Below are positions 2 to 21,290 of a stretch of DNA of 64,000 bases, in pieces. Positions within the stretch are counted from its first letter, which is position 1. Every line of letters starts with the position of its first letter. The DNA is from Isoptericola variabilis 225 (GTDB lineage: Bacteria; Actinomycetota; Actinomycetes; Actinomycetales; Cellulomonadaceae). The notes under the pieces were generated by a model. That model saw nothing but the letters and a program-made list of their open reading frames with translations. It had not been told where the DNA came from and ran no database searches. The stretch covers positions 868,001-932,000 of the forward strand of contig NC_015588.1 of NCBI RefSeq assembly GCF_000215105.1. Reading direction: 5' to 3'. A program made the translations under genes and the position numbers.

Positions 2-523
2 GACTCCGCCGTGTTCCCGGGCCAACAGGGTGGCCCGCTCATGCACGTGATCGCCGCGAAGGCGGTCGCGTTCAAGGTCGCCGCGACGGACGGGTTCAAG
101 GACCGTCAGGAGCGCACGGTGCGCGGCGCGAAGATCATCGCCGAGCGCCTCTCGCAGCCCGACGTCGCGGGCGCGGGCGTCTCCGTCCTCACGGGCGGCA
201 CCGACGTCCACCTCGTGCTCGTCGACCTGCGGAACTCCGCGCTCGACGGCCAGCAGGCCGAGGACCTCCTGCACGACGCCGGCATCACGGTCAACCGCAA
301 CGCCGTCCCGTTCGACCCGCGCCCGCCGCGCGTCACCTCGGGTCTGCGCATCGGCACGCCGGCGCTCGCGACGCGTGGGTTCGGCGACGCCGAGTTCACC
401 GAGGTCGCCGACATCATCGCGACCGCGCTGCGCGACGGGGCGTCCGCCGACGTCGAGGGCCTGTCGGCGCGCGTCGCGAAGCTCACGGCCGACTTCCCGC
501 TCTACCCGGGGCTCGCCCAGTGA
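2..523 (+). CDS. glyA: Serine hydroxymethyltransferase, 3' part (5' end outside window)
   Basis: About 173 C-terminal codons of a PLP-dependent serine hydroxymethyltransferase, which interconverts serine plus tetrahydrofolate with glycine plus 5,10-methylene-tetrahydrofolate in the cytosol. The visible part opens with the family-typical [12 protein letters not shown] stretch and ends in the small C-terminal domain (...LYPGLAQ). The PLP-binding lysine lies upstream of the window. The frame runs in from the left edge without a start, so the gene is cut by the window and not broken. Its TGA overlaps the GTG start of folD by 4 nt, so the two are probably co-translated and both feed the one-carbon folate pool. 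Confidence 0.95.
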
Positions 524-1404
524 CGGCGCAGAAGCTCGACGGCAAGGCGACCGCCGCGGCGATCAAGGACGAGCTGCGCACCCGGGTCGCGGCGCTGCGC
601 GAGCGCGGCGTCGTGCCCGGGCTCGGCACGCTGCTCGTCGGGGACGACCCGGGCTCGCAGTGGTACGTCGCGGGCAAGCACCGCGACTGCGCCGAGGTCG
701 GCATCGAGTCGATCCGCGAGGACCTGCCCGCCGACGCGACGCAGGAGGAGATCGAGGCCGCGGTGCGCCGGCTCAACGAGGACCCCGCCTGCACGGGGTT
801 CATCGTCCAGCTGCCGCTGCCCAAGGGCATCGACACCAACCGCGTGCTCGAGCTCGTCGACCCGGCCAAGGACGCCGACGGCCTGCACCCGACCAACCTC
901 GGCCGGCTCGTGCTGCGCGTGGGCGACGAGATCGACTCGCCGCTGCCCTGCACGCCGCGCGGCATCATCGAGCTCGTCGAGCGGCACGGGGTGTCGCTCA
1001 AGGGCAAGGAGGTCGTGGTGCTCGGCCGCGGCGTGACCGTGGGGCGGCCCATCGGGCTGCTGCTCACGCGCCGCGCGGTCAACGCGACGGTGACGCTCAC
1101 CCACACGGGGACGCAGGACCTCGCGGGGCTCGTGAAGCGGGCCGACGTCGTCGTCGCGGCCGCGGGCGTCAAGGGGCTCGTGACGGCCGACATGGTCAAG
1201 CCCGGCGCGGTGCTCGTCGACGTCGGCGTCTCGCGCGAGACCGACCCGGAGACGGGCAAGTCGCGCGTCGTCGGCGACATCCACCCCGACGCGCTCGAGG
1301 TGGCCGGCTGGTACTCGCCGAACCCCGGCGGCGTCGGGCCCATGACCCGCGCCATGCTGCTGGCCAACGTCGTCGAGACGGCCGAGCGCCTCTCGGCGAA
1401 GTAG
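520..1404 (+). CDS. folD: Bifunctional methylene-THF dehydrogenase / methenyl-THF cyclohydrolase
   Basis: 294-aa FolD, of normal length. It oxidises 5,10-methylene-THF with NADP and hydrolyses the product to 10-formyl-THF. Expected catalytic positions are visible: Tyr49 and Lys53 in SQWYVAGK, Gln97 in FIVQLPLP, Asp120 in DADGLHP, and a PGGVGPMTR motif near the C-terminus. The GTG start at 520 overlaps the glyA stop (GTGA), which fixes the start by translational coupling. The stop codon TAG (1402-1404) is not in ordinary sequence: it is part of the first copy of a 20-nt tandem repeat that continues downstream. Confidence 0.97.
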
Positions 1405-1587
1405 CGCACGATCCGCCGAGGTAGCGCACGATCCGCCGAGGTAGCGCGTTCTCGCTCGAGGTAGCGCACGGGGAGGGCGCGCGCTCGAATGAATCGGTCG
1501 CTGCGCTCCCTCTGCTCTCGCGCGCACCCTCCCCGTGCGCTACCTCGCGGGCCGGGGCGCTACCTCGGCAGATGGTGCGCTCCCTCG
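1401..1587. repeat. Mirror array 1: tandem GTAGCGC units followed by inverted units, 20-nt period
   Basis: Four direct units start at 1401, 1421, 1441 and 1461; the first two are identical 20-mers (GTAGCGCACGATCCGCCGAG). Three inverted units (GCGCTACCTCG or GCGCTCCCTCG) start at 1537, 1557 and 1577, again exactly 20 nt apart. The arm 1457-1484 pairs with 1520-1547 over 27 of 28 positions, so transcription would give a strong long hairpin. The folD stop codon is the TAG of the first unit. Because 20 is not a multiple of 3, successive units place TAG in all three frames. The region 1405-1670 holds no gene. Confidence 0.85.
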
Positions 1588-1670: not shown

Positions 1671-2153
1671 ATGGTGTCCGTACGCACCCACCTGTGGTTC
1701 GGCAACGACCGGGCGCACGAGGCGGCCGAGTTCTACGCGAAGCACATCCCGGGCTCGTCGGTCGGGCGGATCATCACGGCGCCGGAGGGCATCCCGGACG
1801 TCGCGCCGGGCGCCCCGTTCATCGTCGAGTTCACCGTCGCCGGCCTGCCCGTGATCGGCCTCAACGCCGGCCCCAACTTCCAGCTGGACGAGGCGTTCTC
1901 GTTCTACCTCGACGTCGAGACGCAGGACGAGGTGGACCACTTCTGGGAGGTCCTCACGTCCGACGGCGGCGAGCCCGGCCCGTGCGGCTGGTGCAAGGAC
2001 AAGTTCGGCGTCAGCTGGCAGGTCATCCCGAAGCGGCTCGAGGAGCTGTGCGGCGACTACACGACCGAGGCGAACATGCGCGCGACGCAGGCGATGCTGC
2101 AGATGGGCAAGATCGACATCGCCGCCCTGGAGGCCGCGTACCGCGGTGAGTGA
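1671..2153 (+). CDS. VOC-family (PhnB / 3-dmu-9_3-mt type) protein
   Basis: 160 aa, of the vicinal-oxygen-chelate fold often named PhnB or 3-demethylubiquinone-9 3-methyltransferase-like. It opens with THLWFGNDRAHEAAEFY, the beta-alpha opening of this family, and contains the family-typical CGWCKDKFGVSWQ block. Members are usually small dimeric proteins of unknown substrate, and the methyltransferase name is not evidence of activity. The ATG at 1671 is chosen because GGAGG (1660-1664) sits just upstream. A longer frame from 1572 runs through the repeat array and is not credible. It lies between folD and an exonuclease, with no functional clue from context. Confidence 0.85.
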   Translation: MVSVRTHLWFGNDRAHEAAEFYAKHIPGSSVGRIITAPEGIPDVAPGAPFIVEFTVAGLPVIGLNAGPNFQLDEAFSFYLDVETQDEVDHFWEVLTSDGGEPGPCGWCKDKFGVSWQVIPKRLEELCGDYTTEANMRATQAMLQMGKIDIAALEAAYRGE

Positions 2154-18699: not shown

Positions 18700-20280
18700 T
18701 CAGCCGCGCAGGGACGCCATCCAGGCCTCGACGTCCTCGGGACGCCGGGGGAGCGCGGCGGAGAGGTTCTCGTTGCCGTCCTCGGTCACCAGGACGTCGT
18801 CCTCGATGCGCACGCCGATGCCGCGGAACTCCTCGGGGACCGTGAGGTCGTCCGCCTTGAAGTACAGGCCCGGCTCGATCGTGAAGATCATGCCCGGCTC
18901 GAGCACGCCGTCGAGGTAGAGCTCGCGGCGCGCCTGCGCGCAGTCGTGCACGTCGAGGCCGAGGTGGTGGCTCGTGCCGTGCACCATCCAGCGGCGGTGC
19001 TGCTGGCCCTCGGGCGACAGCGCCTCCTCGGCGGGCACGGGCAGCAGGCCCCACTCCTCGAGCCGCTCCGCGATGACCTTCATGGCCGCGGCGTGGATGT
19101 CGCGGAAGCGCGTCCCGGGCTTGGCGACCTCGAACGCGGCGTCCGCGGCGTCGAGCACGGCGGTGTAGATCTTCCGCTGGACCTCGGTGAACTCGCCGTC
19201 GACCGGCAGCGTCCGGGTCACGTCCGCGGTGTACAGGGAGTCGACCTCGACGCCGGCGTCGAGCAGCACGAGCTCGCCGGGCCGCACGACGCCGTCGTTG
19301 GTGATCCAGTGCAGCGTCGTGGCGTGGTCGCCCGCGGCCGCGATGGTCTCGTAGCCGACCGCGTTGCCCTCGAGGCGGGCGTAGGAGTCGAACGTCGTCT
19401 CGATGACGCGCTCCCCGCGGCGGTGCGCGACGGCGCGCGGCAGCGCCCGCACGACCTGCTCGAAGCCCTCGATCGTGCGCGCGACGGCCTCGCGCATGTG
19501 CTCGATCTCGAGCGCGTCCTTGACGAGCCGCAGCTCCGACGTCGCCTCGACGAGCGCCTCGTCGGAGACCTCGTCCGACTCCTCGAGGCCAGCCTCGGCG
19601 CGGATCGCCTCGACGAGCGCGTCGATGGCCTCGTCCGCGCCCGTGACGACGACGATGCGCACGCCGTCCGCGCCGACGTCCTTCGCGAGCGCGTCGCGCA
19701 GCTCGTCGACGTGCCGGGCCTCGATGCCCGTCAGCGTCGTGACGTCCTCGAGCGTGGGGCGCGCGCCGACCCAGAACTCGCCGTACCGCGCGTCGGCGTA
19801 GAACTCCTCGTTGTCGCGCGGCGCCAGCGGGCGCACGTAGAGCACGGCGTGGTGGTGCGACGGCGTGCCGTCGGCGCCGGGGTCGCCCTCACCGTCGGCC
19901 ACGGGATGCAGCACCAGCACGGCGTCGGGCTCGTGGTCGGTGCCGAGGCCCGTCAGGTGCGCGAACGCCGAGTGCGGGCGGAAGCGGTAGTCCGTGTCGT
20001 TCGAGCGGGTCTTGAGCGGGCCGGCGGGGATCACGAGCCGCGTGCCCGGGAAGCGGGCCGACAGGCGCGCGCGACGCTCGGCGGTGAACGGCACGGCGCG
20101 CGACGGCTCGACGCCGAGGTCGGGCCGCGGTGCCCACCCCGACATCACGAACTGCTTGAACGCCTCGGACTGCGGCCGCTGCGAGCGGTTGCTCCCGCGG
20201 TCGGAGACCGTCTCGGCCCGGGTCTCGGCGGGCGGGGTCTCGGACGGGGTCGTCGGGTCGACAGGGGTTGCGTCGGTCAT
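18700..20280 (-). CDS. pepP: Xaa-Pro aminopeptidase (aminopeptidase P, M24B)
   Basis: 526-aa dinuclear-metal peptidase removing an N-terminal residue next to proline. The N-terminal domain contains RFPGTRLVIPAGPLKTRSND. The pita-bread catalytic domain shows the metal ligands in LLDAGVEVDSLYTADVTR (two Asp), HGTSHHLGLDVHDC (His), IFTIEPGLYF (Glu) and GIGVRIEDDVLV (Glu). ATG at 20280 (MTDATPVDPT) is chosen; the open frame to 20379 would be built from the 20-nt repeat array and is rejected. The array therefore sits immediately upstream of this start. Confidence 0.93.
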   Translation of the reverse strand: MTDATPVDPTTPSETPPAETRAETVSDRGSNRSQRPQSEAFKQFVMSGWAPRPDLGVEPSRAVPFTAERRARLSARFPGTRLVIPAGPLKTRSNDTDYRFRPHSAFAHLTGLGTDHEPDAVLVLHPVADGEGDPGADGTPSHHHAVLYVRPLAPRDNEEFYADARYGEFWVGARPTLEDVTTLTGIEARHVDELRDALAKDVGADGVRIVVVTGADEAIDALVEAIRAEAGLEESDEVSDEALVEATSELRLVKDALEIEHMREAVARTIEGFEQVVRALPRAVAHRRGERVIETTFDSYARLEGNAVGYETIAAAGDHATTLHWITNDGVVRPGELVLLDAGVEVDSLYTADVTRTLPVDGEFTEVQRKIYTAVLDAADAAFEVAKPGTRFRDIHAAAMKVIAERLEEWGLLPVPAEEALSPEGQQHRRWMVHGTSHHLGLDVHDCAQARRELYLDGVLEPGMIFTIEPGLYFKADDLTVPEEFRGIGVRIEDDVLVTEDGNENLSAALPRRPEDVEAWMASLRG

Positions 20281-20300: not shown

Positions 20301-20478
20301 GAGGTAGCGCATTCTCCGCCGACGTAGCGCGTTTCTCGGCGACGTAGCGCGTTTCTCGGCGACGTAGCGCGTCTTTCACCGACGTAGCGCGCGACGTCGC
20401 GGGATGCAGCGCTACCTCGGCGTGCGGAGCGCTACCTCGGCGTGCGGAGCGCTACCTCGCCGCGGGGTGCGCTACCTC
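20301..20478. repeat. Mirror array 2: five direct and four inverted GAGGTAGCGC-type units, 20-nt period
   Basis: Direct 10-mers GAGGTAGCGC or GACGTAGCGC begin at 20301, 20321, 20341, 20361 and 20381. Inverted 10-mers GCGCTACCTC begin at 20409, 20429, 20449 and 20469. Every interval within a block is exactly 20 nt. The stop codon of the downstream-encoded hydrolase (minus strand TAG, 20472-20474) is inside the last inverted unit. Direct units carry TAG on the plus strand in all three frames, and the inverted units do so on the minus strand. The unit matches array 1 at 1.4 kb. Confidence 0.88.
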
Positions 20479-21290
20479 GCGGGGACCGGAGAGGGGGAAT
20501 GGGTGCGGGAGAACTCGCGCAGAGCCCGGTCGAGCACGCGGTTGAAGGCCTCGGGGGCGTCGGTGTTGACGTCGTGCCCGGCGCGGGGGACGACGACGAG
20601 CGCGCCGCGCTCGGCCGCGGCCAGGTGGCGCGCCTCCTCGAGCCGCATGCGGTCGCGGGCGCCGTTGACGAGCCACACCGGCGCGCGCGCGGCACGCAGG
20701 TCCGCCACGGACGAGCGGCCGGCGAGCTGGGTGAGCGCGTCCGTGACGACGTCCCACCCGGGGGTGTAGACGCTCGAGGACCGGGGCCCGCCGAACGCCG
20801 CGGCGTCGGCGCCACCGGCCACGGAGCGTCCCGTCGCCAGCGCACGCCAGCGCGTCCCGGCCCGGCGCACGTACCGGCCGACCGCCGTCGTGCCGGCGAC
20901 CGTGACGCGCGCGACGTCGCGGAACAGCGCGACGGGCTTGCCCCGCGGGTCGGACGAGCAGCCCGCCGCCACGATCCCGGCGAGGGGCGCACCGCCGTCG
21001 GACGCGTGGCGCGCCGCCCAGCCCAGGCTCGTGTACCCGCCGAGCGACAGACCCACGAGCGCGACGGGCCGTCCGTCGAACGACTCGACCGCCTCGTCGA
21101 TGACCTCGAACGCCCGGGTGAGCGAGAAGCGCTCGTCGTACCGCGCGCCGTGCGCGGGGAGGTCGACGGCGACGGCCGGGTGACCGGCGTCGCGCACGTG
21201 CTCCAGCTGATGCGCCCAGATGGCCGACGAGGTCCGCATGCCGTGGACGAACACGACGGCGGGGGCGGGGTGAGGGCGGTGTGCAGTCAT
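20472..21290 (-). CDS. Alpha/beta-fold hydrolase
   Basis: 272-aa alpha/beta hydrolase. The first strand and oxyanion region is AVVFVHGMRTSSAIW, and the nucleophile elbow is ALVGLSLGGYTSLGWAARHA with Ser in GLSLGG. A late VVVPRAGHDVNTDAPEAF supplies the catalytic His. Substrate cannot be told: esterase, lipase-like and peroxidase members share this pattern. ATG 21290 (MTAHRPHPAP) is chosen over the longer frame to 21449, which overlaps the divergent PHP gene. The last three codons plus stop lie in repeat array 2. Confidence 0.85.
   Translation of the reverse strand: MTAHRPHPAPAVVFVHGMRTSSAIWAHQLEHVRDAGHPAVAVDLPAHGARYDERFSLTRAFEVIDEAVESFDGRPVALVGLSLGGYTSLGWAARHASDGGAPLAGIVAAGCSSDPRGKPVALFRDVARVTVAGTTAVGRYVRRAGTRWRALATGRSVAGGADAAAFGGPRSSSVYTPGWDVVTDALTQLAGRSSVADLRAARAPVWLVNGARDRMRLEEARHLAAAERGALVVVPRAGHDVNTDAPEAFNRVLDRALREFSRTHSPSPVPAR

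Follow-up and report, generated by a model that had tools for sequence, protein, structure and literature searches.

A repeat array at the folD stop codon of Isoptericola variabilis 225 is part of a REP-like repeat family that recurs at gene ends throughout the genome

The repeat array that overlaps the stop codon of folD in Isoptericola variabilis 225 has counterparts throughout the genome, and together they make up a family of REP-like repeats found at the 3′-ends of genes. The family is characterised by its placement, its periods, a conserved core and sites shared between species, all of which were observed directly. The best overall reading, which we favour only tentatively, is that the units are REP-like phased sites for a putative DNA-binding protein and may form a boundary against transcriptional read-through. 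The starting point was a 64 kb stretch of DNA (the window; bases 868,001–932,000 of the single 3.31 Mb contig of this genome, here G000), for which a reading made from the sequence alone, without database searches, was available.

The folD gene (520–1404, plus strand; Pfam PF00763 and PF02882) ends in a TAG at 1402–1404. The sequence-only reading had described four direct and three inverted units with an exact 20-nt period, and every step within each half is indeed 20 nt. The direct half (1398–1467, plus strand) consists of units at 1398–1407 (GAAGTAGCGC, one mismatch), 1418–1427, 1438–1447 and 1458–1467, and the inverted half (1537–1586, minus strand) of units at 1537–1546, 1557–1566 and 1577–1586, the outermost (1577–1586) with one mismatch. 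An inner segment of 69 nt (1468–1536) lies between them. It also held true that the folD stop is the TAG inside unit one, that TAG occurs in all three frames (those at 1402, 1422 and 1442 are each in a different frame), and that the inner arms, 1457–1484 and 1520–1547, match at 27 of 28 positions. The pattern GTAGCGCN{7,13}GTAGCGC matched 11 times in the window and not once in 100 dinucleotide shuffles; hence, the array is not due to chance. The RNA of the array (201 nt) folds at −142 kcal/mol (z −8.7), and none of 200 shuffles folded as low. Despite this strong hairpin, no T-run terminator was found at this array. A search of Rfam with the array returned seven matches at E values up to 1, all to miRNA families and the best scoring 42.9 bits against a gathering threshold of 124, which we read as chance matches of the kind given by a long hairpin. 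The next gene (1671–2153, plus strand) matches Pfam 3-dmu-9_3-mt (PF06983), and the sequence from about 1598 to this gene resembles its counterpart in two other genomes of the genus, G005 and G014.

The window also includes a second mirrored array at 20301–20478, which the sequence-only reading did not mention. Its direct half (20301–20390, plus strand) has five units, and the outermost unit of its inverted half (20389–20478, minus strand) contains the TAG stop of a gene of the alpha/beta hydrolase family (20472–21254, minus strand; PF12697). The start of an aminopeptidase P-like gene (18700–20280, minus strand; PF00557 and PF05195) lies just beyond the array.

A search of the whole genome, which had been proposed for units recurring at 19–21 nt, found hundreds more units forming one family. 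The pattern GTAGCGCN{13}GTAGCGC gave 221 forward and 224 reverse matches, or 445 pairs of units spaced exactly 20 nt apart, and a reversed-pattern control gave none. Forward matches are dense at 0–0.6 and 2.68–2.97 Mb and few at about 1.2–2.5 Mb; the last is at 2,964,873, and there is none from 2,964,900 to 3,307,740. To characterise the family, 54 stretches around matches were fetched (586 kb including the window), using all 221 forward matches and those reverse matches that were among the matches listed, so that arrays matching only in reverse may be missing. As the stretches were chosen for holding arrays, rates derived from them are not genome rates. Genes were called with our own codon log-odds script, which gives reliable stops where the ORF is real and approximate starts.

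The fetched stretches contain 568 units and 121 half-arrays of at least two units (60 plus and 61 minus strand, with two to nine units each), and the step between units was exactly 20 nt in 431 of 447 cases. A weighted profile of the units gives close to 2 bits for ten of the twelve positions of the core, and little constraint on the spacer. In the core, CGAGGTAG, the fourth base can be G, A or C, as can the third base of the unit, and the suffix is CGC in this species. Exact 10-mers outside arrays numbered five in the fetched stretches, compared with 2.6 expected, and as lone cores are thus not in excess, several sites together appear to matter. The spacers are 8–9 nt long and often repeated within one array; their 8-mers included 257 distinct sequences in 120 half-arrays, with the commonest in only seven. 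Short, often repeated spacers and the inversion of half of the units rule out a CRISPR array, in agreement with the original reading. Spacer identity was 0.60 between neighbours, 0.35 between mirror partners and 0.38 between random halves, and super-units of 40 nt occur in some arrays. Among 120 half-array representatives, the strongest dependences link near-neighbour spacer positions and none runs across a stem. The folding energy of a unit (−4.1 kcal/mol, versus −3.4 with the spacer shuffled) indicates a slight folding tendency only.

Fifty mirrored pairs have less than 2.5 kb between the halves. The inner gap is 6–9 nt in 18 of these and ranges from −2 to 1,383 nt in the remainder, and it may contain a hairpin, a whole gene or a repeat. 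For 21 of the 121 half-arrays, no opposing half lies within 2.5 kb, and the two halves of one pair face outward. The folD array shares its 69-nt inner segment with the array at genome positions 2868398–2868626 (at 2868488–2868556, in reverse orientation, with 90 % identity over 69 of 69 aligned positions), and G016, a further genome of the genus, also has it at the orthologue of that array. A segment of 87–90 nt, 76–87 % alike between copies, lies between the halves of four arrays (19369–19455, 372295–372381, 2761092–2761179 and 2925578–2925664); its palindromic end also matches partly elsewhere, and the G016 orthologue of the array at 19369–19455 is without it. Eight mirrored pairs (151378–152790, 571095–572317, 1110633–1111640, 1194309–1194934, 2259578–2260145, 2889763–2890915, 2912433–2914072 and 2964763–2965782) span 428–1,383 nt and enclose one or two called genes each, all on the plus strand in seven of the eight. 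A transposon with arrays as its ends was considered for these and set aside, rather than disproved, as by eye the enclosed genes resemble ordinary ones.

The sequence-only reading would have fallen if units lay at random positions with no link to stop codons. Instead, 95 of the 111 gene 3′-ends that flank arrays lie no more than 20 nt from the edge of the array, compared with 9 of 43 gene 5′-ends. In 40 of the 121 half-arrays the TAG of a unit is the stop codon of a gene on the same strand (33 in unit one and 7 in unit two). A further 44 start 1–20 nt past a same-strand stop, 10 lie further away, and 27 face no same-strand gene end. Among the half-arrays further from the stop, visual inspection showed a hairpin between the stop and the array at 151378, 1604337 and 2543692. 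TAG is the stop of 45 of 89 array-bearing genes and of 49 of 434 other called genes (p 2e-15), and 44 of the 89 end in TGA. Arrays were present in 77 of the 516 intergenic intervals of the fetched stretches; they occupied 38 of the 99 convergent intervals, 35 of the 322 co-directional ones and 4 of the 95 divergent ones (Fisher p 7e-4 for divergent versus the rest and 4e-9 for convergent versus co-directional). Some arrays have a separate hairpin next to or within them. Such separate hairpins were counted in 13 of 38 convergent intervals with arrays and 25 of 33 without (4 and 15, respectively, when shuffled). The placement extends to another genus: in 12 stretches of G130 obtained from period-20 matches, seven intervals were convergent, five co-directional and none divergent, and for 13 of the 19 flanking gene 3′-ends the array was no more than 20 nt away.

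Relatives were searched genome-wide at periods of 20–22, and reversed-pattern controls mostly gave 0–5 matches. At period 20, the GTAGCGC form found in I. variabilis 225 (445 matches) gave 180 matches in G017, 116 in G016, 18 in G005 and 8 in G008 among the 18 genomes of the genus, and 0–2 in the rest of the 221 genomes of the family. With the relaxed core CGAGRYAG at the same period, 11 of the 18 genus genomes have 15–286 pairs and the other seven none, and all 17 genomes of a second genus, g6, have 1–33 pairs. Pairs at period 22 were found in G010 (70), G012 (58), G011 (35) and G004 (11). Period 21 outnumbers period 20 in 15 of the 17 g6 genomes, the exceptions being G129 and G140; G128, for example, has 8, 242 and 1 pairs at periods 20, 21 and 22. 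Both genomes of genus g20 also have period-21 pairs (54 and 63). Thus, 12 of the 18 genus genomes carry arrays at one of these periods, and with at most one pair at periods 20–22 in the other six (G002, G003, G007, G009, G014 and G015) the element is dispensable. G215, of genus g24, gave 153 relaxed period-20 matches against 72 in the reversed control; it was left out of the cases, and may be rich in a different repeat. The bases that follow the core vary by species (CGC, GCAA, TAC, AA or AGCC) and are mixed in G005, G008 and G013, and in some relatives the core is GATAG.

Among 396 genomes drawn at the level of the order, a TAG-type core at periods 20–22 gave 0–3 matches in each genome outside the family, which we read as chance. 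The central-hairpin pattern matched 12 stretches in a search of named genomes that may omit records near our own; four are Isoptericola MAGs and eight are single palindromes in unrelated taxa. In viral contigs, the two-unit pattern was found in at least 120 stretches, most of them with one match.

Orthologous 3′-ends largely agree between species in whether they carry an array, though this agreement is overstated because both samples were drawn around arrays. For 59 ends from 20 stretches of G016, arrays are present in both genomes at 25, in neither at 33 and in G000 only at one, and for 27 ends from G005 the corresponding numbers are 9, 16 and 2. Among the ends that carry arrays, 12 of 38 from G016 and 5 of 14 from G005 had no orthologue in our G000 stretches. 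In the more distant G130 (12 stretches), one of 19 array-bearing ends had an orthologue there, and it too carries an array. Unit number and spacers differ between species at shared ends. At 1129899, all three of G000, G016 and G005 have an array of direct units only. Behind nagB there are four inverted units in G000, at best one decayed unit (by eye) in G016 and none in G005. Thirteen folD orthologues share 87–100 % identity, and arrays of the wider family follow four of them (G000, G005, G004 and G011). Eight are without an array, several of these having ordinary or long hairpins by eye, and the G016 contig stops one base past the TAG stop. Four FolD copies at 42–45 % identity, a G005 paralogue and G017 (no match) were left out of this set, and related repeats lie behind two of the copies at 42–45 % (G002 and G012), with CAG in the two units of G002. 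Just past the folD stop in G009, G003 and G001 (loci L251, L254 and L261), long hairpins with shared ends like GACGAGCGTGC occupy the place that arrays have in other species, and are possibly a further repeat family.

The nearest known elements are the GTAG REPs, with REPINs and BIMEs. According to the published survey (PMC3733652), GTAG REPs are extragenic, lie at most 20 bp from the 3′-end of an ORF in gaps that are convergent or unidirectional, include GTAG in the unit, often supply the TAG stop codon, form pairs of opposite orientation with GTAG outside and occur in large clusters. The arrays share the extragenic 3′-end placement, the rarity in divergent gaps and the captured TAG. The survey also describes a palindromic body with stems of 5–13 bp and notes that REPtrons can be missing in some species (PMC3733652). 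The array unit has no such body (120 half-arrays) and RAYT is absent from the 18 genus genomes, and membership of the RAYT-driven REPs was therefore rejected. The GATAG core of some relatives is a further difference. The original suggestion of a REP-like repeat thus fits the placement but not the body or the transposase. The sequence-only reading was also not aware of a description of the architecture, and in this it was partly wrong. As the placement and the captured TAG equal those of GTAG REPs (PMC3733652), the kind was already known, and the construction as an array is what is new; no earlier description of phased 20–22 nt arrays at gene ends was found in the literature searched, which was mostly outside subscription journals.

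Other known repeats are more distant. Plasmid iterons, direct repeats of about 20–22 bp that are bound by the replication initiator, are likewise helix-phased but lie at the origin, whereas the arrays lie at gene ends chromosome-wide. The DNA uptake sequences of Neisseriaceae (PMC3630211) have a short core with species dialects and inverted pairs tied to terminators, but are thousands of dispersed single copies; the arrays are tandem, and dispersal of that kind was not seen, given the five single 10-mers in the fetched stretches. TTF-I sites also cluster as one short motif behind a transcribed unit, the mammalian rRNA genes, but at one eukaryotic gene family and with a known protein (PMC3772059), as opposed to many genes and a putative protein here. 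The TAACTGA direct repeats of Beggiatoaceae form many intergenic sets and contain stop codons, but their units are of seven bases and mostly just before start codons (PMC4679880).

The main rival to phased protein-binding sites, possible though doubtful in our view, is that the arrays are selfish, non-autonomous mobile repeats of the REP/MITE type without host function, tolerated after stop codons and amplified by replication slippage. Their placement and captured stops, equal to those published for the GTAG REPs (PMC3733652), point this way, as do the inner segments that recur in four arrays and, in opposite orientation, in two, and the nagB site occupied in G000 only. The likeness of neighbouring spacers and the 40-nt super-units are as expected from slippage. 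However, the Y1 transposase domain (PF01797) was found in none of the 18 genus genomes (a control was positive in 5 of 14), the many distinct spacers are not common to arrays as in a recent mover, and sites are largely common with G016, with a single discordance in a sample taken around arrays. A bidirectional hairpin terminator with a captured stop codon, the combined stop and terminator of the sequence-only reading, is less probable still. The folD array does form a strong hairpin, 18 of the 50 mirrored pairs have a 6–9 nt loop with perfect or near-perfect arms, and several array-less folD orthologues have a hairpin at the same place. But a hairpin needs complementary arms, not one genome-wide core, and this core, the direct-only array conserved in three species and spacers that pair between halves no better than random indicate that a hairpin alone is insufficient. 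The half-arrays without a mirror partner, the separate hairpins beside or inside some arrays and the missing T-run at folD also count against it.

Improbable, in our estimate, is a topological site, with arrays that attract gyrase, or some other protein that wraps DNA, to the region behind a transcription unit in the manner of E. coli BIME-2. A study of E. coli gyrase sites (PMC6379681) describes a G/C motif phased at 10 bp and an enrichment of the sites both in BIME-2 and after transcribed operons, which would suit such a role. The arrays favour convergent gaps, and the strongest harmonic in the AT profile of the unit is at 10 bp (2.43 versus 0.86 at 20 bp; 2.24 versus 1.57 for g6 units), but with a permutation fraction of 0.064 this signal is not significant and is suggestive only. 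Gyrase is also loosely sequence-specific, yet the array core is invariant and its suffix depends on the species. That a three-frame translational stop is the purpose of the period we consider scarcely credible. TAG at period 20 or 22 does cover all frames and TAG stops are over-represented in array-bearing genes, but the periods of 20, 21 or 22 do not follow the reading frame. As the period of 21 that predominates in g6 and g20 is a multiple of three and keeps TAG in one frame, a three-frame stop is not a shared purpose and is contradicted by these lineages; CAG in the two G002 units and the TGA stops of almost half of the array-bearing genes also weigh against it. Hence, of the proposed stop and terminator, the strong hairpin at folD stands, but the stop is not family-wide and the hairpin is not required.

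Phased binding sites at gene ends remain the explanation that we prefer. From the fixed two-turn period, the invariant core, the species-specific suffixes and the shared sites, we infer a sequence-specific protein that binds to DNA rather than to RNA, and a boundary function. Spacing by whole helical turns is a feature of direct-repeat arrays bound by proteins, and units at 20, 21 or 22 bp, depending on the lineage, would present their sites on one face of the DNA. Conservation of a direct-only array and spacers that are not complementary between halves suggest that it is the core that is kept and not a fold. With their units facing inward from the edge of the gene, arrays occupied by the protein would form a boundary at the end of a transcription unit and block read-through from both sides, and the captured TAG would be a by-product of an array abutting the reading frame. 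The arrays in four divergent gaps and the outward-pointing pair are at variance with this explanation, as is the dispensability of the element in six of the 18 genus genomes, and the mixed suffixes in G005, G008 and G013 are untidier than would be expected if each species had a single reader. The recurring inner segments and the variation at nagB would suit mobile repeats as well.

The usual explanation of REP-type repeats invokes RAYT transposases and hairpins. In at least two of the genera studied here, the gene-end niche of REPs is filled by repeats that have no palindromic body and a two-turn spacing, and the transposase is missing from the genus in which RAYT was looked for. An unlikely, more far-reaching possibility is that a lineage of Micrococcales possesses a DNA-level mark for gene ends, in which a dedicated protein would read phased, orientation-dependent arrays behind stop codons and halt RNA polymerase arriving from both directions; motif and reader would co-evolve, chromosome-wide, into dialects that differ by species. 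Because the motif, the period and the presence of arrays differ among close species, the reader should be findable by genome comparison, and if a protein does read the arrays, they would represent a new means by which bacteria mark the ends of transcription units or insulate them.
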